From Nitrospirota bacterium (GTDB lineage Bacteria > Nitrospirota > Nitrospiria > Nitrospirales > Nitrospiraceae), in NCBI GenBank assembly GCA_040755395.1, contig JBFMAX010000010.1, positions 90,136 to 148,659 of the forward strand: 58,524 bases of DNA. The letters run 5' to 3'. The notes beneath the pieces were generated by a model, which saw only the letters and a program-made list of their open reading frames with translations, had not been told where the DNA came from and did not search any database. The position numbers and the translations under genes were made by a program. Positions 5,109-29,200 of this stretch are shown one piece after another; the stretch's first letter is position 1; the number at the start of each line of letters is the position of its first letter.

Positions 5109-5188
5109 TTTTCCAACAAACAAAAAGGCGCCGAACGTTTCATCGAGACAGACATTACCCCTCTCCCTCGATGGCGCTGGCGCCTTTG
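5109..5188 (-). terminator. Intrinsic terminator overlapping ANTAR hairpin P2 (leader 1)
   Basis: On the minus strand AAAGGCGCC pairs with GGCGCCTTT, enclosing a nested 7-bp stem CATCGAG/CTCGATG, and is followed by TTTTTGTTTGTT. The enclosed region is long for a classical terminator, but the nested stem shortens it. The 5' arm is shared with hairpin P2, giving a terminator/antiterminator switch between glnA and the activator gene. Confidence 0.65.
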
Positions 5189-5220
5189 CCATTTCGCCCG
5201 ACGACGTTGTCGGGCTTAGC
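5120..5220 (-). promoter_or_regulatory. Putative ANTAR antitermination leader (leader 1, upstream of sigma-54 activator-nrt-cynS)
   Basis: On the minus strand two hairpins follow each other with a 4-nt gap. P1 (5215-5196) has a 7-bp stem GCCCGAC/GTCGGGC and loop AACGTC. P2 (5191-5178) has a 4-bp stem TGGC/GCCA and loop AAAGGC. Both loops are hexamers with A at position 1 and G at position 4, the signature bound by ANTAR-domain proteins such as EutV and NasR. The P2 loop plus its 3' arm also form the 5' arm of the downstream terminator, so P2 and the terminator exclude each other. No convincing promoter lies between glnA and P1, so the leader may act on read-through from glnA. Function is inferred from structure. 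Confidence 0.72.
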
Positions 5221-5332: not shown

Positions 5333-6742
5333 TTACACGTCGTAATACATGAAATATTCGTACGGATGGGGACGCAGGCGGAGCTGGTCGACTTCCTTGC
5401 TCCGCTTATAGTTGGTCCAGGTTTCGATGAAATCCTCGCTGAACACGCCGCCCTTGAGCAAAAACTGATGATCCCGCTCCAGATTGCTGAGTGCCTCATC
5501 GAGACTGCCCGGCATGGTCGGAATCTTCGCCGCCTCTTTCGGCTCCAGATCGTAGAGATCCTTGTCCGCCGGCTCGCCGGGATTGATCTTGTTCTCGATC
5601 CCGTCCAGTCCCGCCATCAACATGGCTGCGAACGCCAGGTACGGATTGCACGCCGGATCGGGGAACCGCACTTCGATCCGCTTGGCCTTGGGGCTCGGCG
5701 AATACATCGGAATCCGGATGCCGGCCGATCGGTTGCGGCTCGAATAGGCCAGCAGCACCGGCGCCTCGAAGCCCGGCGTCAGCCGCTTGTAGGAATTCGT
5801 CGTCGGATTCGTGAACGCGGCGAGCGCTTTCGCGTGTTTCAAAATGCCGCCGATGTAATACAGGCACGTCTGGGAGATTCCTGCGTACTCCTTGCCCGCG
5901 AACAGCGGCTTGCCGTCCTTCCAGATGCTCTGGTGCGTGTGCATGCCCGACCCGTTGTCGCCGAAGATGGGCTTCGGCATGAAGGTGACGGTCTTGTTGT
6001 GGCGACGCGCGACGTTCTTCACGATGTACTTATACATCATCATTTTGTCGGCCATACCGACCAGCGTATCGAAGCGGATGTCGATCTCCGCCTGGCCGGC
6101 CGTGGCGACTTCATGGTGATGCTTCTCCACGAGCATGCCGACCTTCTGCATCTCCAGAATCATTTCGCTGCGGATGTCCTGTTGCGTGTCGGTCGGCGCC
6201 ACGGGAAAGTAGCCTTCCTTATGCCTGGGCTTCGAGCCCAGATTGACGCCTTCTTTGCCCGCGTTCCAGATGCCTTCGTCGGAATCGATGAAATAGTACC
6301 CGCTGTGGCTGTTCTGATCGTAGCGGGCGTGGTCGAAGATGAAGAACTCGGCTTCCGGTCCCCAGTACGACGTGTCGCCGATCTTCGTGCTCTGCAGATA
6401 CTTCTCCGCCTTTTGCGCGACGAAACGCGGATCGCGGTCGTAGTTCTCACGCGTGATCGGGTCGACGACGTTGCAGATCAGGCTCAAGGTCGGCACGGCC
6501 GCAAACGGGTCCAGACAGGCGGAGGCCGGATCGGGAACCGCCAACATGTCGCTGTTCTGGATCGCCTTCCAGCCCCGGATTGACGAGCCGTCGAATCCCG
6601 ACCCGTCCTTGAACAGACCTTCGTTCAGTTCTTCGACCGGAATCGAAAAGTGCTGCCAGGTCCCCAATAGGTCGCAAAACTTCAGATCCACCACCAGCAC
6701 TTTGTTCTTTTTCGCAAACTCTAAAACCTCCCGCACGTTCAT
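5333..6742 (-). CDS. glnA: Glutamine synthetase type I
   Basis: Makes glutamine from glutamate, ammonium and ATP in a cytoplasmic dodecamer. It is 469 aa, the classical GSI-beta length. The N-terminal [13 protein letters not shown] motif, the EAEFFIFD metal-binding strand, the [16 protein letters not shown] segment and the NRSAGIRIP motif are present. Tyr397 in KDLYDLEP corresponds to the E. coli adenylylation site, so GlnE-type covalent control is possible, but glnE is not in the window. AGGAGG precedes the ATG. It is the last gene of nadE-amtB-PII-glnD-glnA, 56 nt after glnD, and so is made together with its nitrogen sensors. Confidence 0.98.
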
Positions 6743-6798: not shown

Positions 6799-9485
6799 CT
6801 ATGTGATCTTCCTGCCCAAAAACGCGTCGATCTCCGCCTCCACTGCGGCGCGGATGGTCTCCAACTGCGCGTGGTCCACGATTTTCCGGCCCTGCAGGTC
6901 CGTCACATAGAAGACGTCGGCGACCTGATCGAGCCGGGTGGAGATGCGGGCCGCGTGCACCGACAGGTTGAGCCGGAAGATCGCGTTGGTGATGACGTAC
7001 AACAAGCCCTGGCGGTCGTCGGCGAACACGTCGATGATCGTGAACCGGTCGGACGTCTCGTTGTCGAGCCGCACTTCGGTCGACTGCCGGTTCGACGGAA
7101 ACGGCCGGCTCGCGGAGATCCTGGTGCTGCGCCGCATCAACTCATCGATCCGGACCTCGCCTTTCAAGGCTGCTGCGATCGTGCGGCTGATCGCCTGAAG
7201 CCGCTCGGCGGGCGGCGTGCCGTTGTAATCCGGATCGGCCACCTGAAACGTGTCGACCACGACGCCGTCGTGGCGGGTGAGAATCTGCGCGTCGAGAATC
7301 TGCAGCCCGCTGGCCGCCATGACTCCGGCGATCTTGGAAAAGATCCCGGGAATCAGATCGTTGAACGTCACCACCGCATATTCGCAGGTCCCGAGCGACG
7401 GATTGAATTCCGCCTCCACCAGCACTTGCCCTTCTTTCAGCCGGTTGATCGCCGCCAGATGGGCCGCAATGCGATTCGGCGGCGTGCCATAGGCATACCG
7501 CAGAGGAAATTGGCGCAGTTGCGCCTCGATCCAGTCGGGAGCCGCCGCGTCCAGTCCCGCAAGCGGCGCCTGTTGCGCCACGTCGCTCACCACCCGCTTC
7601 CACCGCTCCGGCTCGTCCGTGGTCCCCCGTTCGCCCGACACTTCCGGCATCGTACGCAGATACAGTTCGATCAACAGCGATTCTTTCCACTTCGTCAACA
7701 CGCCGGGACCCACCGCCGCGATGTCGGCCGCCGTCAGCACCAGCAGTTTCCGCAACACCTCGGGCGTCCCCACTTCGCGGGCGAACGGCAGGAGCACCTT
7801 TTCGTCATAGGGATCGCGCCGGAACGCCGTGTGGGCCATGAGCAGATGCCGGTGCACCAGGAAGACCAGCGTGCGCGTTTCCTGTTCATCGAAGCCGAGC
7901 AGCGCCGCCGCGTCCTCCGCGATCGCCCTGCCGACTTCGCTATGGTCCTCCTCCTGCCCCTTGCCCAAATCATGGAGCAGCACGGCCAAATGCAGGATGT
8001 CCTTGCGCTTGATCTGCCGGTAGACTTCCCCCAGCATCCCCTGATCCGACGTCAACGCCTCAGCCTTCGCCACGGCCAACAGGCTGTGCTCGTCCACCGT
8101 GTACTTGTGATACTGGTTGAACTGCATCAGGCCGCGCACCGTCGCGAAGGCGGGAATCAGCTTCTCCAGCAAATACGCCCGATGCATGGCCTGCAGCGTC
8201 TGCGCCGCCCCGGGACCGGACAGAATTCGTAAAAAGCTCCGGCTGACGTCCGGGGTGCGAAAGGCCTCGCCTGACAGGTGCTCGACGTGCCGGTGGATGT
8301 CCTCCAGCAAGGACGGGTCGATCACCAGCCGCCGCTCCCGCGCCAGGTCGAAGAGCTTGAGCAGCAGCGCCGGGCTGTCCAGCACGCGGGTCCGCCGCTC
8401 GGCCGGGACGCTGAGCGCGTCGCCGATCACGACAAAATCCTCCTCCAAGCGGGGCGCCGGCAGGAGCCCGGCCAGCCGCTGCCGGAACGGCACGCTGCGG
8501 CAGCGGTCCACGAACCGCATGCACCGCTCGTGCAGCCCCATCGTATGCCGGTAGTACAGTTGCATGAACTGCTCGACGGCCAGCAGGTTCGGCCTGTCGC
8601 GGAATCCGAACTTTTCGGCCAGCCACATTTGTTCGTCGAACGTCAGGATTTCCTGCGCCATCCCGGCGCGAAAGTGCATGAACGCCCGCACGCGCCAGAG
8701 AAACTCGCGGGCGTCGCACAGCGCCGCATAATCCTGCCTGGAGATGAGGCCCCGGTCGGACAACTCGCGGATCGTCGGCGCCTGATAGCGGGCCATCCCC
8801 GCCCATTGCAGCACGTGGAGGTCCCGCAACCCGCCCTTGCTCTTCTTGACGTTGGGCTCCAGCAGATACACCGTTTCGCCGAACTTCTCGTACTCGCGGC
8901 GCCGTTCGGCGAGCTTGTGATCCAGATATCTGTCCGCGCCTTTGGAGACCACTTTGCGCAGGTACTTCCCGTGGAATTCTTGGAACAGCTCGGGGCTGCC
9001 GGCCAGGAACCGCGCTTCCATCATGGAGGTCCGAATCGTCAGATCGGCGGTGGCCAGTTCGATGCAATCCTGGATCGTCCGCACACTGTGGCCGACTTGA
9101 AAGCCGATGTCCCAGAGCGGGTGGAGCACCCGGCGAACCAACTCCGGCACCAGCCGGCCGGATTCCGGCCGGAACAGGAACATGAGATCGATGTCGGAAT
9201 GGGGCGCCAACTCGCGGCGGCCGTACCCGCCCAGCGCGACCAGACAGCAGTGTTGGGAACCGGCCAGGACGAAGTCGTCTCCGCCTTTGCGTATCGCGTT
9301 CCGGTACCGGCCGGCGATGAGGCCGTCCACCAGATCGGTGATCGCCGAGACCACCTCGGCACCGGATGCGCCGTCTTCCAACCGCTGATGGATCGCGCAA
9401 CGCTGCTCGGCCAACATCGTCCCGACGATCCCGACCTCGCCGTCGCGCAAGGCGCCGATGGATGAGTCGCCGCCGGTCGCAAACA

Positions 9486-9486
<1 letters not shown>
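6799..9486 (-). CDS. glnD: PII uridylyltransferase / uridylyl-removing enzyme
   Basis: Bifunctional sensor of glutamine that uridylylates PII when glutamine is low and removes UMP when it is high. About 895 aa, full length. The nucleotidyltransferase motif [20 protein letters not shown] lies near residue 95, a central HD domain carries [16 protein letters not shown], and two ACT domains fill the last 200 residues (the final one includes DRQGLLYVI). The first start codon is GTG at 9489; the next codon, ATG at 9486, overlaps the PII stop as TGATG, so the genes are translationally coupled. The target Tyr51 is present in the neighbouring PII protein. Confidence 0.97.
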
Positions 9487-9833
<347 letters not shown>

Positions 9834-9861: not shown

Positions 9862-10121
9862 GCATAATTCATGAACGCTTCTGCTGCAATCGCGGATTCG
9901 CCGCTGGGCACCCATTGCTCCGGGATGCAATGGGTCCCGGCCGGCATGCGCCTGAACGGCATGCCGGCGGGCAGGCTCGCCCCGCGCGGCCTCTACGTAC
10001 TGTTGCAAGTACGCCTCGGCCCCGCGGGGCTCCACGTACCCGTCTCGCTTGGCGACCGCCGGGTACCCGTTGCTCTTCTCGATGCAACGGGTGTAACGCG
10101 ACGAACCGTCATGAATTATGC
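9862..10121. repeat. MITE-like foldback element between amtB and PII gene
   Basis: The 376-bp gap between amtB and the PII gene contains no credible coding sequence. A 13-bp perfect inverted repeat bounds the element: GCATAATTCATGA at 9862-9874 and its complement at 10109-10121. Between the ends are several smaller palindromes: CCCATTGC/GCAATGGG, CCGGCATGC/GCATGCCGG, GTAC...GTAC around 10009, and ACCCGTTGC/GCAACGGGT near 10066-10092. The layout resembles a non-autonomous mobile repeat. It sits inside the amtB-glnK-glnD transcription unit and could act as an RNA processing or attenuation site. The flanking sequence up to 10200 shows nothing else. Confidence 0.6.
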
Positions 10122-10200: not shown

Positions 10201-11526
10201 TTATGAATACGCCCGCTCGTTGTGCTGCGTCAGGTCCAACCCGGTGGCTTCTTCTTCCTGCGAGACGCGCAGCCCCATCGCGTTCTCAACCAACTTCAGG
10301 ATGACGTAAGAGCCGACGAAACTGAACACCGCAGCCGACACCACCGCCACGGCTTGAACGGCCAATTGGGAGGAATTGCCGAAGAACAGGCCGTCCGCCC
10401 CGGCGGGATTGATCGCCTTGGACGCGAACAACCCGACCGCCAACGTCCCCAGCACGCCTCCGATGCCGTGCGTCCCGACGACGTCGAGCGTGTCATCATA
10501 GCCGATCCGCCCCTTCCACACAATTGCGAGATAGGAGCATCCACCAGCTACGAGACCGATCAGGATCGCGGCGCCGGGACCGACGAATCCGGCGCCGGCC
10601 GTGGACGTGGCCAAACCGGCGACCGCGCCGCTGGCGACTCCCAGGACCGTCGGTTTGCCGCGATGTTGCCATTCGACGACCATCCAGGACAGAGCGGCGG
10701 CCGCCGCCGCCAGGTGCGTGGCCACCAGCGCATTGACCGCCACCGCATTGGCGCCTCTCGCGCTCCCGCCGTTGAACCCGAACCAGCCGACCCAAAGAAG
10801 GCCCGCGCCGAGCAGAACGTACGGCAGATTGTGGGGCGCCATATAATCCGTTCGCCATCCCCGGCGCCGCCCCAAGACCAGCGCGCAGGCCAGCGCGCTC
10901 AACCCGGAGCCGATGTGGACGACGGTGCCGCCGGCGAAGTCGACGGCGCCCAACTTGCTCAGCCATCCTCCGCCCCACATCCAATGGGCCAGGGGCACAT
11001 AGACGAACAGCGACCAGAGCACGGTGAACATCAACATGGCGCTGAATTTCATCCGCTCCGCAAAGGCGCCGGTAATCAACGCCGGGGTGAACGAGGCGAA
11101 CAGCAATTGGAACAGCATGAAGGCCGCATGGGGAATCGTGCGGCCGTAAGCCGGTGCGGGCGCCGTCCCGACGCCGCTCAGAGCGGCCCAATCGAGCCCG
11201 CCGATCACGCCGCCGCGGTCCGGCCCGAAGGCGAGGCTGTAGCCGCAGATCGCCCAGAGAAGGCTGACCGTGCACAGGATGGTGAAGCTTTGCACCATCG
11301 TGCCGATCACGTTCTTGCTGCGCACCAGCCCCCCGTAAAAGAAAGCGATGCCCGGCACGATCATCGCCAGCACCAGGGCGGACGCGGTCATCATCCAGGC
11401 CGTGTCGCCGCTGTCGATTCCTCCCGCCGCGGGTGCGGACGCCTCGGCCCACACGTCGGTCGTTACACCCACGAGACCAATGATGGTCCCCGCGATCAGC
11501 GTCGCGCACCGATTCGTCGTTTCCAC
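10201..11526 (-). CDS. amtB: Ammonium transporter
   Basis: Trimeric inner-membrane Amt/Rh channel for ammonium uptake, blocked by PII when nitrogen is plentiful in known systems. From the GTG at 11526 it is 441 aa. That start has AAGGAGG five bases upstream, while the upstream ATG at 11592 has none and would overlap nadE. An N-terminal signal sequence (about residues 1-28, ending VWAEA) is followed by roughly 11 helices. The pore twin-histidine sites are visible in VVHIGSG and in GTHGIGGVLGT. The linked PII gene supports the function. The long 5' gap to the PII gene is unusual. Confidence 0.96.
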   Translation of the reverse strand: METTNRCATLIAGTIIGLVGVTTDVWAEASAPAAGGIDSGDTAWMMTASALVLAMIVPGIAFFYGGLVRSKNVIGTMVQSFTILCTVSLLWAICGYSLAFGPDRGGVIGGLDWAALSGVGTAPAPAYGRTIPHAAFMLFQLLFASFTPALITGAFAERMKFSAMLMFTVLWSLFVYVPLAHWMWGGGWLSKLGAVDFAGGTVVHIGSGLSALACALVLGRRRGWRTDYMAPHNLPYVLLGAGLLWVGWFGFNGGSARGANAVAVNALVATHLAAAAAALSWMVVEWQHRGKPTVLGVASGAVAGLATSTAGAGFVGPGAAILIGLVAGGCSYLAIVWKGRIGYDDTLDVVGTHGIGGVLGTLAVGLFASKAINPAGADGLFFGNSSQLAVQAVAVVSAAVFSFVGSYVILKLVENAMGLRVSQEEEATGLDLTQHNERAYS

Positions 11527-11588
11527 TCTGGCCTCCTTCTTGGCGTCCACGTGCAACGCTCCCGTCGGCTGCCGGCGATCAGCCGGTC

Positions 11589-13367
11589 TCACACGCTCCG
11601 GTACCCGTTCGTGATCGGCATCCGCCGATCTTTGCCGAACGCCCGGTGTGTAATCTTGATCCCGATCGGCGCCTGCCGTCGCTTGTATTCGCTGCGGTCC
11701 ACCATCCCGATCACCCGCGCGACGGTCTCGCGGTCGAATCCCATGGCGACGATTTCCTCCAGCGACCGATCCTCTTCCACGTAGGCTTTCAGAATCGGGT
11801 CCAGCGTCGCATAGGGCGGCAATGTGTCCTCGTCCTTCTGGTCGGGTTTCAGCTCGGCCGTCGGCGCGCGATCGAGGATGCCCTTAGGAATCACCGCGCG
11901 CTCCCCGCGACGATTGCGAAGCCGCGCCAGCTCATAGACCATCGTCTTGGGCACGTCTTTGATCACCGCAAAGCCGCCAGCCATGTCGCCGTAGAGCGTG
12001 GCATACCCGACGCTCATTTCGCTCTTGTTGCCGGTGGTCAGAACGAGATGGCCGAACTTGTTGGAGAACGCCATCAGGATGTTGCCCCGGATACGGGCCT
12101 GGAGGTTTTCTTCCGTCGTGTCGGCCGGCCGGTTTCCGAAGGCCGGCGCCAATGCCTTGAGATAGGACCGGAACGGGCTGGTGATGGGAATCGTCCGCAG
12201 CGCGATACCCAACCGCCGGACAAGATCGGCCACGTCGTCGCGGCTCTCCCTCGACGTGTACGGGGACGGCATAAAAACGCCCAACACGTTGGCGGGTCCC
12301 AGCGCATCCACCGCAATCGCCGCCGTCAGCGCCGAGTCGATGCCCCCGCTCAGCCCGATCACCACGCGTTTGAAGCCGTTCTTGCGCACATAATCGCGTA
12401 CGCCCAGCGTCAGGGCCCGATAGACCTCTTCGATGGAGTCAAGCGGCAAGACCAGCGGCGGAATGGCCGGGACCCGCTTCCGGCCGCCGGTTGCGACCGC
12501 GAGATCGACCCGCTCGATCGCTGAAGCGAATTGGCCGGCCGGCGCCTTCCGCCGGCCGTGAGCCATCCGGGACCGGGCCACCGCCTCGATGTTGAGATCG
12601 GCCACGAGGAAATCCTCCTCGAATGCCTTGGCCCGCGCGATCACGTCGCCCGTCTGATCAAGAATCAGGCTGTTCCCGTCGAATACCAGCTCGTCCTGTC
12701 CGCCCACGGTGTTGGTGTACGTCAGGATCACGCCGTTCTCGCGCGCGCGGGTCGCCAGCATCTGCTCGCGATAGCGGCTCTTGCCCACGTGAAAGGGGGA
12801 GGCGTTGATGTTGACGATCACCTCCGCGCCGGCCCACGCCTGGATTCTGGCCGGTCCCTCCGGCAACCAGATGTCTTCGCAAATATTCACCCCCAAAACC
12901 GTGCCGTTCAGCGTCACGACGGGGAGCCTGCGGCCCGGATGAAAATACCGGCTCTCGTCGAACACGCCGTAGTTCGGCAAGAACCATTTGCTGTAAGTGG
13001 CTGCCACGCGCCGCTCCCCGATGACGGCGGCCGCGTTGTAGAGCTCGTGGCGTCCGGCCGGGACGACCGTCGGCGACACGCTCTTGTGATCCGACGCTCC
13101 ACCTTGTCCCACATAGCCGACGACCGCCGCCAGACCTCGACACTCGCGGGCCACCTGTTGCAACGCCAGACGATTGTCTTCGACGAAACGGGGCTTCAAC
13201 AGGAGGTCTTCGGGCGGATAGCCCGTCACCGCCAATTCCGGAAATGCCGCCAGATCCGCTTTGGCCTTTCTGGCCTCGCGAAGCCACCCGATGATCCTCT
13301 TGACGTTGCCGTCCAGATCGCCCACCGTGGGATTCATCTGGACCATGGCGATACGAAACGAGCGCAT
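11589..13367 (-). CDS. nadE: Glutamine-dependent NAD+ synthetase
   Basis: Final step of NAD+ synthesis, amidating deamido-NAD+ with ammonia released from glutamine. It is 592 aa in two domains. The N-terminal nitrilase-type glutaminase has Glu44, Lys127 and Cys163 (in LGVNICEDIW) as the catalytic triad. The C-terminal synthetase has the ATP-pyrophosphatase loop SGGIDS at 340-345. It is the first gene of the amtB-PII-glnD-glnA block, with leader 2 and a sigma-70-like promoter upstream. Placement beside PII is meaningful because glutamine-dependent NadE is a known PII target in Azospirillum. That this enzyme is PII-controlled here is an inference. Confidence 0.96.
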   Translation of the reverse strand: MRSFRIAMVQMNPTVGDLDGNVKRIIGWLREARKAKADLAAFPELAVTGYPPEDLLLKPRFVEDNRLALQQVARECRGLAAVVGYVGQGGASDHKSVSPTVVPAGRHELYNAAAVIGERRVAATYSKWFLPNYGVFDESRYFHPGRRLPVVTLNGTVLGVNICEDIWLPEGPARIQAWAGAEVIVNINASPFHVGKSRYREQMLATRARENGVILTYTNTVGGQDELVFDGNSLILDQTGDVIARAKAFEEDFLVADLNIEAVARSRMAHGRRKAPAGQFASAIERVDLAVATGGRKRVPAIPPLVLPLDSIEEVYRALTLGVRDYVRKNGFKRVVIGLSGGIDSALTAAIAVDALGPANVLGVFMPSPYTSRESRDDVADLVRRLGIALRTIPITSPFRSYLKALAPAFGNRPADTTEENLQARIRGNILMAFSNKFGHLVLTTGNKSEMSVGYATLYGDMAGGFAVIKDVPKTMVYELARLRNRRGERAVIPKGILDRAPTAELKPDQKDEDTLPPYATLDPILKAYVEEDRSLEEIVAMGFDRETVARVIGMVDRSEYKRRQAPIGIKITHRAFGKDRRMPITNGYRSV

Positions 13368-13457: not shown

Positions 13458-13560
13458 ATCCAAAAAAAAACGCCCTCAATCCCGCCGGGGGACCGAGGAC
13501 GTCGTTGTCCGTCGACCAGTACGTTGTCTTCGCTGATGTGGAGACTCCGTTGTCTCCAAA
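13458..13560 (-). promoter_or_regulatory. Putative ANTAR antitermination leader (leader 2, upstream of nadE-amtB-PII-glnD-glnA)
   Basis: On the minus strand P1 (13557-13540) is a perfect 6-bp hairpin GGAGAC/GTCTCC with loop AACGGA. P2 (13510-13497) is GGAC/GTCC with loop AACGAC. Both are hexaloops with A1 and G4, matching the two-hairpin motif recognised by ANTAR proteins. The linker is 29 nt. P2 overlaps the 5' arm of the following U-tract terminator, so binding that stabilises P2 would permit read-through into nadE. P1 lies only about 7 nt after the predicted transcription start. Layout and stem order match leader 3 upstream of the porin gene. Confidence 0.8.
13462..13504 (-). terminator. 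Intrinsic terminator of leader 2
   Basis: On the minus strand CGTCCTCGGTCCC pairs imperfectly with GGGATTGAGGGCG and is followed by nine T residues. It lies between the predicted promoter and nadE, so it is an attenuator, not the end of an upstream gene. Its 5' arm includes the 3' half of hairpin P2. Confidence 0.8.
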
Positions 13561-13570
13561 AAACGGCGCC

Positions 13571-13600
13571 AGGATACCACCGGGCCCGCACGGCTGTCAA
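13571..13600 (-). promoter_or_regulatory. Sigma-70-like promoter for the nadE-amtB-glnA block
   Basis: On the minus strand TTGACA (13600-13595) and TATCCT (13576-13571) are separated by 18 bp. The predicted start, near 13564, would place ANTAR hairpin P1 at the very 5' end of the RNA. The same -35 hexamer and spacer length occur before leader 3. Confidence 0.7.
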
Positions 13601-16101: not shown

Positions 16102-17826
16102 TCAGAATAAGAAATACCGTTGCGCCATCGGTAGCACCACCGCCGGTTCACACGTCAACCGGACGCCGTCGGCCGTCACGACATAGGTTTCCGGATCGAC
16201 TTCGATCTTGGGCAGGGCGTCGTTCAACTTGAGATCGCGCTTCGTGAGGCCTCGGCACTGTTTGACCGGAACGATCCGCTTCTGCAACCCGAGTTTCTTG
16301 GGCACGTCCCGGTCCAGCGCGGCCTGCGACACGAACGTGACGCTCGTGCTGCAGATCGCCCGGCCGTAGGACCCGAACATGGGCCGACTCAGGACCGGCT
16401 CCGGCGTCGGGATCGAGGCGTTCGGATCACCCATCGCCGCCATGGCGATGAACCCGCCCTTCAGGACCAATTCAGGTTTCACGCCGAAGAAGGCTGGTTT
16501 CCAGATCACCAGATCCGCGAACTTGCCCACCTCGACCGATCCCACCTCGTGCGCGATGCCGTGCGTAATGGCCGGATTGATCGTGTATTTGGCCACGTAG
16601 CGCTTGGCCCGGAAATTATCATGGCGGGGCGAATCCTTGTCTCCGTTCGGGAACAGGTGGCCGCGTTGGATCTTCATCTTGTGGGCCGTCTGCCAGGTCC
16701 GGATGACGACTTCGCCGATCCGCCCCATCGCCTGCGAATCGGACGACATCATGCTGATCGCGCCGAGATCGTGCAGCACATCTTCCGCCGCGATGGTTTC
16801 GCGCCGGATGCGGGATTCCGCGAACGCCACGTCTTCGGGCACGTTTTTGTTGAGGTGGTGGCAGACCATCAGCATATCCAGATGCTCGTCCATGGTGTTG
16901 ACGGTGAACGGCATGGTGGGATTGGTGGAGGACGGCAAGACGTTCGGCTGGCCGCAGACCTTGATGATGTCGGGCGCGTGGCCGCCGCCCGCCCCCTCCG
17001 TGTGGAAGCTATGAATCGTCCGGCCGGCGAAGGCTTTGATCGTGTCCTCGACGAAACCGGCCTCGTTCAACGTGTCCGTGTGGATGGCGACCTGCACGTC
17101 ATACCGTTCGGCCACGCTCAAACAGGTGTCGATCGCGGCGGGTGTCGTCCCCCAATCTTCGTGCAGCTTCAGCCCGATGGCGCCGGCTTCGATCTGCTCG
17201 TTCAGCCCCTCCGGCATCGAGGCGTTCCCCTTGCCGAGGAATCCGAGGTTGATCGGGATGCCGTCCGACGCCTCCAGCATGCGGTGAATGTTCCAGGGGC
17301 CCGGCGTGCAGGTGGTGGCGTTCGTGCCGGTGGCCGGCCCTGTGCCGCCGCCGATCATGGTCGTGATGCCGGCGGACAGGGCCTCCCAATATTGTTGCGG
17401 GCAAATGAAGTGGATGTGGGTCTCCACGCCGCCGGCCGTGACGATGCAGTGTTCCGCGGAGATCACTTCCGTTCCCGGCCCGATCGCCATGCCCGGCGTG
17501 ACGTTCGGCATCACATCGGGATTGCCGGCCTTGCCGATGCCGACGATCCGGCCGTCCTTGATCCCGATGTCCGCCTTGACGATCCCCCAGTAATCCAGAA
17601 TCAGCGCGTTGGTGATCACCGTGTCCAGCGCGCCGCCGGCGCTGGTCACCCTCGGCGATTGCCCCATCCCGTCGCGGACGACCTTGCCGCCGCCGAACAC
17701 CACCTCGTCGCCGTAGGAGGTGAAATCCTTTTCCACTTCGATCACTAGATCGGTGTCGGCCAGCCGGACCCGATCGCCGACGGTGGGGCCGAAGAGGTCG
17801 TGGTATTGCCGTCTGGAGATCTTCAC
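16102..17826 (-). CDS. ureC: Urease alpha subunit
   Basis: Catalytic subunit of urease, splitting urea to ammonia and carbamate with a di-nickel centre. It is 574 aa, full length. All metal and catalytic residues are present: His137 and His139 (GGVETHIHF), carbamylated Lys220 ([12 protein letters not shown]), His249, His275 ([15 protein letters not shown]) and Asp363 (SSDSQAMGR). The active-site flap has Cys322-His323 (VCHHLNK). Numbering is the Klebsiella enzyme plus three. The start overlaps the ureB stop by four bases, indicating coupling. The separate A, B and C subunits are the common bacterial arrangement. Confidence 0.99.
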
Positions 17827-26704: not shown

Positions 26705-26827
26705 AGCCAAAAAAAAACGCCCTTCCGGTCCGACTCAGGACCAAAAGGACGCCGTTGTCCTCGTCTTGTTCTGATTTCCGCGGGCGGTGCGAAGACTCCC
26801 TTGTCCCCACACCGAAGCTCGCACGGT
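26705..26827 (-). promoter_or_regulatory. Putative ANTAR antitermination leader (leader 3, upstream of porin-urt-ure)
   Basis: On the minus strand P1 (26813-26786) is an 11-bp stem with three G-U pairs, GGTGTGGGGAC/GTCTTCGCACC, and loop AAGGGA. P2 (26760-26747) is GGAC/GTCC with loop AACGGC. Both loops are hexamers with A1 and G4. The linker is 25 nt. P2 overlaps the start of the terminator that follows. The order (promoter, P1, P2, terminator, gene) matches leader 2, and P2 is nearly identical in both (GGACAACG-C-GTCC). This is the textbook design of ANTAR-dependent read-through as known for eut and nas leaders; the regulator itself is predicted. Confidence 0.82.
26708..26752 (-). terminator. 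Intrinsic terminator of leader 3
   Basis: On the minus strand GGTCC/GGACC forms the apical stem around a 6-nt loop, extended by imperfect pairing of GGCGTCC with GGAAGGGCG, and is followed by nine T residues. It lies between the promoter and the porin gene and shares its 5' arm with hairpin P2. Confidence 0.82.
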
Positions 26828-27934: not shown

Positions 27935-29200
27935 TTACATCTTTTGCCGTTCGGCTCTTTCCTCGATCTCTCCCGCCAGCAGGATCGCTTCCGCGATTTC
28001 CCGCATGGACTTGCGCAGATCCATGCTCTGCCGCTGAATCAGCTTGAAGGCTTCTTCCTCCGAAAGTTTCTTGGACCGCATGAGATAGCCCTTGGCCCGT
28101 TCGAGCAGCTTCCGCACCGCCAGCGCTTCCTGCATTTCGAACGACTTCTCCATCAGCGTCGTGTGCTCGATCGCGATGGCCGCCTGGTTGGCGATCGCCT
28201 GCAGGAGCTTGACCTCTTCGGCCGTGAAGTTGTGCGGCACGGAGGTATAGCTGTTGATCACGCCGACGGCTTTGTCCCGGATCATCATGGGCACCGAGAG
28301 CAGCGAGCAGAGCCCTTCTTTCTTCGCCATGTCCGGATACATGTAGTCCCGCTCTTTGGTGACGTCCGGCACGATGATGGGCCGGCGTTCCTGGACCGCC
28401 CGTCCGCTGATGCTCTGCCCGACCTTGAGATTGGGCTTCCGGCGGTACGCCTCGCTCAAGCTCTGCGTCGCCACGATCCGCAACTCCCCGGTCGGCTCGT
28501 CCAGCAGCATGATGGAGCAGATTTTCGAGTTCATCATCTGCGCCGTCATCGTGACGATGAGTTGCAGCACATCCTCGATCAGGCGGTTCGAGGCGACGGT
28601 CTCCGATACCTGCGACAGGGTTTCCAGTTGCAGCGCCTTGCGCTTCATCTGGTCGTAGAGCCGCGCGTTTTCGATGGCCCCGCCGACCTGGTTGGCGATG
28701 GTGGAGAGCAGCGCCAACTCGTCCGGCCGGTAGCGTCGCGGCCGCTTGTGCTGCACGTTGATGACGCCCACGACTTCCTTCTTGGCCATGATCGGGACCG
28801 AGACGAACGCCTGGTAGCGGTCTTCCGGCAGATTGTGGAAGAACTTGAACCGCGGATCGTCGCTCGCATTGCTGGGGATCACGACCCGCGTGCGCTCGCG
28901 CGCGACCCACCCGGTGATGCCCTCGCCGAGACCGATCGTGATCCGGCCGATCAGCTTGGGATGGGGATTTTTCGACGCCCGCAGGATCAATTCATCGTGG
29001 CTGTCGGAGAGCAGGTACAGGAGACAGGCGTCGGCCTTGGTCACTTCGACCACCACTTCGACGATGTGCTTGAGCACCGCCTCGAGATCCAGCGTGTTGG
29101 TGATGGACTCGCTGATGCGATGCAGCACGTCCACCTCGCGCGTCTTCTCGCGCAAGGCCTGTTCCAACTGAGCCACGGATTGTCGGCGCTTGGACTCCAT
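27935..29200 (-). CDS. GAF-GAF-ANTAR putative transcription antiterminator
   Basis: A 421-aa soluble protein. After a coiled N-terminus (about 1-30) come two GAF domains (about 35-180 and 205-350), linked by a helix. The C-terminus (about 360-405) is an ANTAR RNA-binding domain: LLERAKGYLMRSKKLSEEEA, then QRQSMDLRKSMREIAEAIL, matching the family's AKGxLM and Sm...dvAe features. ANTAR proteins bind paired hexaloop hairpins in RNA leaders and prevent termination. Three such leaders lie downstream in this window, before the urea, ammonium/glutamine and cyanate gene blocks, so this is the candidate regulator. The GAF ligand is unknown. No receiver or kinase domain is present, unlike EutV. It follows aroB by 54 nt. 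Confidence 0.9.
   Translation of the reverse strand: MESKRRQSVAQLEQALREKTREVDVLHRISESITNTLDLEAVLKHIVEVVVEVTKADACLLYLLSDSHDELILRASKNPHPKLIGRITIGLGEGITGWVARERTRVVIPSNASDDPRFKFFHNLPEDRYQAFVSVPIMAKKEVVGVINVQHKRPRRYRPDELALLSTIANQVGGAIENARLYDQMKRKALQLETLSQVSETVASNRLIEDVLQLIVTMTAQMMNSKICSIMLLDEPTGELRIVATQSLSEAYRRKPNLKVGQSISGRAVQERRPIIVPDVTKERDYMYPDMAKKEGLCSLLSVPMMIRDKAVGVINSYTSVPHNFTAEEVKLLQAIANQAAIAIEHTTLMEKSFEMQEALAVRKLLERAKGYLMRSKKLSEEEAFKLIQRQSMDLRKSMREIAEAILLAGEIEERAERQKM

Follow-up and report, generated by a model that had tools for sequence, protein, structure and literature searches.

The region upstream of nadE in the window, by which we mean the whole 58,524-nucleotide stretch of Nitrospirota DNA that was analysed, is a dual-hexaloop leader of the ANTAR antitermination type, and very probably acts as a transcription attenuator that is opened by a single GAF-GAF-ANTAR protein. 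We observed the anatomy of this leader, the mutual exclusion of two of its hairpins, its conservation and covariation among relatives and its co-occurrence with the ANTAR gene.

The nadE leader and the genes behind it

The leader was read directly from the window sequence. It occupies 13600 to 13462 of the minus strand, between ureD (end 13625) and nadE (start 13367), and consists of the following parts.

13571..13600, minus strand: sigma-70-type promoter TTGACA-18-TATCCT (sequence and consensus scan)
13540..13557, minus strand: P1 hairpin, 6-7 bp stem, hexaloop AACGGA with A1 and G4 (sequence, folding)
13511..13539, minus strand: P1-P2 linker, exactly 29 nt (sequence)
13497..13510, minus strand: P2 hairpin GGAC-AACGAC-GTCC, putative antiterminator element (sequence, folding of the nascent transcript)
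13462..13501, minus strand: intrinsic terminator, 13-bp stem, 5-nt loop, nine T (folding, terminator scan, sequence)

The promoter has a -35 box TTGACA (13600-13595), a spacer of 18 and a -10 box TATCCT (13576-13571), all on the minus strand. P1 is formed by GGAGAC (13557-13552), the loop AACGGA (13551-13546) and GTCTCC (13545-13540), and its 6-bp stem is lengthened by a seventh pair, T-A. P2 comprises GGAC (13510-13507), the loop AACGAC (13506-13501) and GTCC (13500-13497). The terminator pairs CGTCCTCGGTCCC (13501-13489) with GGGATTGAGGGCG (13483-13471), three of its 13 bp being G-U, and is followed by the T9 tract (13470-13462); the nadE start codon lies 94 nt downstream of the T tract. The first-pass annotation had described the same promoter, P1, 29-nt linker, P2 and nine-T architecture, and every letter of it was found to be right, although on the minus strand.

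The 3' arm of P2 (13500-13497) is contained in the 5' arm of the terminator (13501-13489) and therefore the two hairpins are mutually exclusive. The free 101-nt leader RNA folds as P1 plus terminator at -39.9 kcal/mol (folding z = -2.8 for the leader), whereas the best fold in which P2 is enforced reaches -31.1. Since the terminator form is about 9 kcal/mol more stable, termination is the predicted default. A nascent transcript ending short of the terminator 3' arm is predicted by folding to adopt the P1 plus P2 form.

ANTAR leaders are defined by two hairpins, each with a stem of 3 bp or more and a hexaloop whose first base is A and whose fourth base is G. The nadE leader has the hexaloops of this dual-hexaloop class along with the terminator overlap, the ANTAR gene and the covariation. 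Its linker of 29 nt exceeds both the 5-12 nt of the eut leaders and the 2-25 nt that a screen of actinobacteria allowed (PMC8164766). Linker length, called 'variable' in PMC3369931, does not belong to the general definition. The same paper reports that extension of the linker to 14 nt impaired induction in eut leaders.

The genes behind the leader are listed below.

11589..13367, minus strand: nadE, glutamine-dependent NAD synthetase, first gene after the leader (Pfam CN_hydrolase and NAD_synthase)
10201..11592, minus strand: amtB, ammonium transporter, overlapping nadE (Pfam PF00909)
9486..9824, minus strand: PII signalling protein gene (Pfam PF00543)
6799..9489, minus strand: glnD, PII uridylyltransferase, overlapping the PII gene (Pfam PF08335, HD and ACT)
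5333..6742, minus strand: glnA, glutamine synthetase (Pfam PF00120, PF03951)

glnA starts 57 nt after glnD, and the gap between amtB and the PII gene is 376 nt, in which a consensus scan detected neither a sigma-70 promoter nor a terminator. The leader probably controls PII, GlnD and glutamine synthetase, as the gene order suggests. That these proteins are themselves under antitermination control had been proposed earlier, with an upstream position in the nitrogen circuit as a further implication. The conservation of the leader and its tracking with the ANTAR gene support the antitermination part of this proposal, and its extension to the three proteins is drawn from the gene order.

Most of the amtB-PII gap is spanned by a perfect 13-bp inverted repeat, TCATGAATTATGC (window 9862-9874 and 10109-10121, arms 234 nt apart), which may represent a small insertion element and might influence co-transcription. 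A match to the Rfam 5' ureB sRNA (RF02514; 100 bits) was found antisense to ureC, at window positions 17387-17674 on the plus strand, and may reflect only the conserved urease coding sequence.

Sister leaders, conservation and covariation

Two sister leaders occur in the window.

26709..26812, minus strand: leader 3, before the porin-urtABCDE-urease genes (covariance models R1 and R2)
5120..5213, minus strand: leader 1, between glnA and the sigma-54 regulator/nrtA genes (read from sequence)

A search for double hexaloops with an overlapping terminator returned two sites in the window, the nadE leader (leader 2) and leader 3, whereas 60 first-order Markov resamplings gave no site. A covariance model whose training set comprised 21 relatives but not the nadE leader of this genome scored that leader at 83.4 bits (E 1.4e-15) and also matched two sequences outside any training set, namely leader 3 and the third element of the genome. 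Leader 3 reached 59.5 bits with R1 and 60.5 bits with R2, and was in neither training set. The third strong leader lies elsewhere in the genome, at C4:193165-193254 on the minus strand (locus L099:6166-6255, minus), with 56 bits and a TTGACA promoter. Leader 1 combines CCCGAC-AACGTC-GTCGGG with TGGC-AAAGGC-GCCA overlapping a long terminator (fold z = -5.9). R1 missed it, and the long loop of its terminator is the probable reason.

The nadE upstream regions of 57 genomes were compared. Promoter, P1, P2, terminator and T tract were found in the same order across most of the family, and the module recurs ahead of nadE or of porin-amtB-PII genes. In the relatives P1 is preceded, at a comparable distance, by TTGACA or a near match together with a -10-like box, mostly with a spacer of 18. 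The first-pass annotation had made its proposal depend on conservation of the two hexaloops in close relatives, and both hairpins were indeed seen to recur there. Positions A1, A2 and G4 of the P1 loop are invariant in 28 relatives.

The P1 stem shows a compensatory G-C/A-U change among the relatives and the upper stem of the terminator also covaries. Together, P1 and the terminator contain seven pairs with changes on both sides, amounting to 30 such cells, a level that none of 500 shuffles attained; in slid controls the paired share dropped from 92% to 42-55%. The 5' arm of P2, GGAC, is almost invariant despite its position outside the 13-bp terminator, and P2 as a whole is too conserved among orthologues to covary. 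The linker drifts in both sequence and length, from 16 to 44 nt. The P2 stem GGAC/GTCC of leader 3 is the same as that of the nadE leader, as had been noted before, but the interpretation of this identity as a sign of selection on structure was rejected in favour of sequence conservation, because P2 hardly varies among orthologues and it is P1 and the terminator that carry the covariation.

The nadE leaders of a subclade (G006, G007, G010, G012, G014, G016, G018, G019, G025, G026, G030 and G035) have G1 in place of A1 in the P2 hexaloop while P1 keeps A1. An altered protein specificity is unsupported as the meaning of this substitution because the other leaders of these genomes mostly retain A1. 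In a further group of genomes (G004, G008, G027 and G036) the ANTAR gene is present and there is no leader before nadE; the leader is located downstream of nadE instead, where it precedes either a BBP2 porin or some other small reading frame; the PII gene is found a few kb beyond it in G004, G008 and G036. The module therefore goes with ammonium uptake and PII, not with nadE.

The position of the leader just behind ureD is where a strong terminator would serve the urease operon, and the element could thus be read as an unregulated terminator of that operon with hexaloops that arose by chance, nadE-amtB being expressed by read-through or from an undetected promoter. We rejected this explanation as very improbable. 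A conserved promoter separates ureD from the terminator, and both P1 and the P2 5' arm are conserved, although a plain terminator needs neither. Most relatives have the same leader and nadE directly behind the ANTAR gene instead of behind a urease operon; in this genome the urea genes stand between the ANTAR gene and the leader. Moreover, the leader stands downstream of nadE in the four genomes with a shifted module, and the element is absent where ANTAR is absent.

The ANTAR protein and its co-occurrence with the leaders

The preferred reading, an attenuator opened by an ANTAR protein, has one candidate for the protein, as the whole genome contains a single ANTAR gene and this gene is located in the same window as the nadE leader.

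27935..29200, minus strand: GAF-GAF-ANTAR protein, 421 aa, the only ANTAR protein of the genome and the proposed trans-acting factor

The ANTAR domain (PF03861) scored 68.9 bits in the protein scan against a cut-off of 27.3, and 72.1 bits in the genome, and the protein is related by sequence to the solved EutV, NasR and Rv1626. The hexaloop contacts of EutV, R142, K149, E160, Y164, M172, N173 and R175, correspond here to R, K, E, F, M, D and R. Nearly all relatives have identical contact residues or N at 173, and NasR likewise has D at this position. Two EutV contacts are altered in the protein, R168 to Q and R177 to S. For the first GAF domain the nearest solved structure is the uncharacterised protein 3e0y, followed by PtsP GAF domains (3ci6, 3trc), with NifA-like GAFs matching further down the structure list. 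PtsP-like and NifA-like GAFs respond to glutamine or 2-oxoglutarate, which provides a lead for the signal that is sensed.

A total of 61 relatives were scored for both components. Leaders were found in all 52 ANTAR-positive genomes, whereas six of the nine ANTAR-negative ones have no leader and the three that carry one are incomplete (72-89% complete); the resulting table (52/0/3/6) gives a Fisher p of 1.5e-6, a value that overstates independence because the genomes are related. A phylum-wide draw gave, for members of the family, 35 genomes with both components, 3 with ANTAR only, 1 with the leader only and at least 19 with neither (p 3e-11, with independence likewise overstated by shared ancestry). 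Within genus g5 some genomes have both the leader and ANTAR and others have neither; in two of the others (G024 and G034) nadE is still present, with PII downstream and no leader. Leaders and ANTAR appear to have been gained and lost together, also inside this genus.

Many nearly complete g5 genomes (e.g. G024, G034, G099, G106) were observed to be without an ANTAR gene or any leader. One 99%-complete genome of this genus, G207, has a strong leader of 66.7 bits and no detected ANTAR gene, which may be due to an assembly gap.

Leaders without a detected ANTAR gene, as in the three incomplete genomes and the near-complete G207, would suit control by a non-ANTAR factor such as a small-molecule riboswitch, another RNA-binding protein or leader-peptide translation. 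We regard such control as highly unlikely. No Rfam family matched the nadE leader at the gathering threshold, and in a relaxed search the best hit scored 19 bits where 80 would have been required. What is conserved is the ANTAR hexaloop motif, while the linker varies, which leaves nothing that resembles an aptamer core. The joint gain and loss of leaders and ANTAR, genus g5 included, also argues against this explanation.

Proposed mechanism and regulon

From these features we infer ANTAR binding, read-through, an inducing signal, co-transcription from nadE to glnA and a positive direction of control. Polymerase would start at TTGACA/TATCCT and transcribe P1, the linker and P2. With nothing bound, the terminator would take the 3' arm of P2 and transcription would stop at T9. 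When the GAF-GAF-ANTAR protein is active, its ANTAR dimer would bind the P1 and P2 hexaloops, and P2 held in this way would block the terminator and let polymerase proceed into nadE-amtB, with read-through probably continuing into PII-glnD-glnA. The same protein probably opens the leaders of urea, nitrate/nitrite, cyanate and second ammonium transport, and therefore those genes would react in concert. Nitrogen shortage, perceived via the GAF domains, is the likely signal. Several observations speak against this reading: the long linker, the G1 of the P2 loop in a subclade, the two altered EutV contacts, the moderate urease expression seen without urea in N. moscoviensis and the 376-nt gap between amtB and PII.

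We see very little chance that the ANTAR protein binds the hairpins but promotes termination or acts on translation. Translational modes are suggested in the available text of PMC3369931 for ANTAR RNAs that have no terminator, whereas the overlap of P2 with the terminator and the start codon 94 nt past the T tract are the geometry of EutV antitermination (PMC8934654).

A broader proposal, which we put forward tentatively and hold to be somewhat less probable than its converse, is that nitrogen regulation in Nitrospira is governed globally by one GAF-GAF-ANTAR protein rather than by an NtrBC-type DNA-binding pair. This protein would sense 2-oxoglutarate or glutamine directly, would gate every nitrogen uptake route along with PII, GlnD and glutamine synthetase and would thereby sit above PII, exerting control at transcript elongation. 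NtrC is the obvious alternative regulator; the genome encodes many NtrC-like proteins, none of which reaches the ntrC cut-off (best 492 versus 558.6 bits), a result that does not decide the matter.

Related antitermination systems differ from the present one in several respects. GnfK/GnfR, reportedly a two-component system with ANTAR antitermination of nif genes, is alike in nitrogen-gene antitermination, whereas the protein found here has GAF domains and no receiver domain. AmiR of Pseudomonas works with AmiC. As described in the available text of PMC3369931, AmiR-amiE and NasR-nasF of Klebsiella are alike in having a leader hexaloop hairpin with a terminator and one sensor-ANTAR protein, but they serve one operon each, and NasR senses nitrate via a NIT domain. 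EutV and the eutP, eutG, eutS and eutA leaders of Enterococcus faecalis share the A1/G4 hexaloop pair, the P2-terminator overlap and the contact residues; in the available parts of PMC3369931 and PMC8934654, however, EutV is a phosphorylated response regulator of ethanolamine genes, in contrast to the GAF-GAF-ANTAR architecture and ammonium-assimilation targets seen here.

Ramesh et al. 2012 placed ANTAR RNAs before the genes for PII, for ammonium/urea/nitrate/nitrite transporters and for glutamine synthetase in a range of bacteria, with 13 predicted leaders in Desulfotomaculum acetoxidans (PMC3369931, available text). These nitrogen regulons are alike in their dual-hexaloop leaders, their nitrogen targets and the occurrence of several leaders per genome, but belong to other phyla. 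The main text of that paper does not name Nitrospira, and its available part does not describe a gated nadE-amtB-PII-glnD-glnA unit with a fixed GAF-GAF-ANTAR partner and calls the combination of GAF and ANTAR domains uncharacterised as of 2012 (PMC3369931). New here are the lineage, in that the named relatives closest to the window are Nitrospira, the single GAF-GAF-ANTAR partner, the probable nadE-AmtB-PII-GlnD-GlnA operon and the longer linker. A single-protein, Nitrospira-wide nitrogen regulon, with nearly all nitrogen-uptake genes under one protein, also appears to be new, and a search of the openly licensed literature gave no paper that deals with antitermination in Nitrospira or with a global regulator of nitrogen there.

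Nitrospira are the main nitrite oxidisers, include complete ammonia oxidisers and are globally important nitrifiers. If the proposal is true, one ANTAR protein gates the acquisition of ammonium, urea, nitrate, nitrite and cyanate together with PII, GlnD and glutamine synthetase, and the GAF-ANTAR combination gains a clear target set. Such a regulon would be concrete and testable in the cultured strains N. moscoviensis and N. defluvii.

The same leaders are present in both of these strains. R1 matches in N. moscoviensis fall in the ureD/nadE, glnA/nrtA and cyanase gene/amtB gaps, with the layout of leaders 1 and 2 here. More widely, the same covariance model detects leaders of relatives ahead of nrtA, porin-urt, a second amtB, the sigma-54 regulator gene, a formate/nitrite transporter, a cyanase-like gene, porins and small lipoproteins. 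With the exception of the small lipoproteins, the identified sister targets are nearly all nitrogen-acquisition genes, porins or adjacent regulators. In chemostat RNA-seq of N. moscoviensis with nitrite as the sole nitrogen source, most of this region was strongly transcribed, with cyanase among the top 100 and the urease genes at moderate levels without urea (PMC6606698). These data, from a single condition with no contrast, fit read-through under ammonium shortage. As the urease genes were moderately expressed without urea, regulation may be graded.

The third strong leader of the genome precedes a 129-aa predicted lipoprotein (L099:5743-6132), and small lipoproteins that seem related on visual inspection lie behind leaders in G010 and G015 too; the lipoprotein may therefore belong to the nitrogen regulon. 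Tandem arrangements were also observed. Seven loci of family f2 (L046-L049, L051, L057 and L059) have two tandem attenuators ahead of nadE, with loops like GAAGAT and GACGGC before terminator 1 and GGAC-GATGAC-GTCC before terminator 2, while complete tandem leaders about 100 nt apart were found before some genes, including nrtA, in G015, G008, G017, G030 and N. defluvii (G029/G278).
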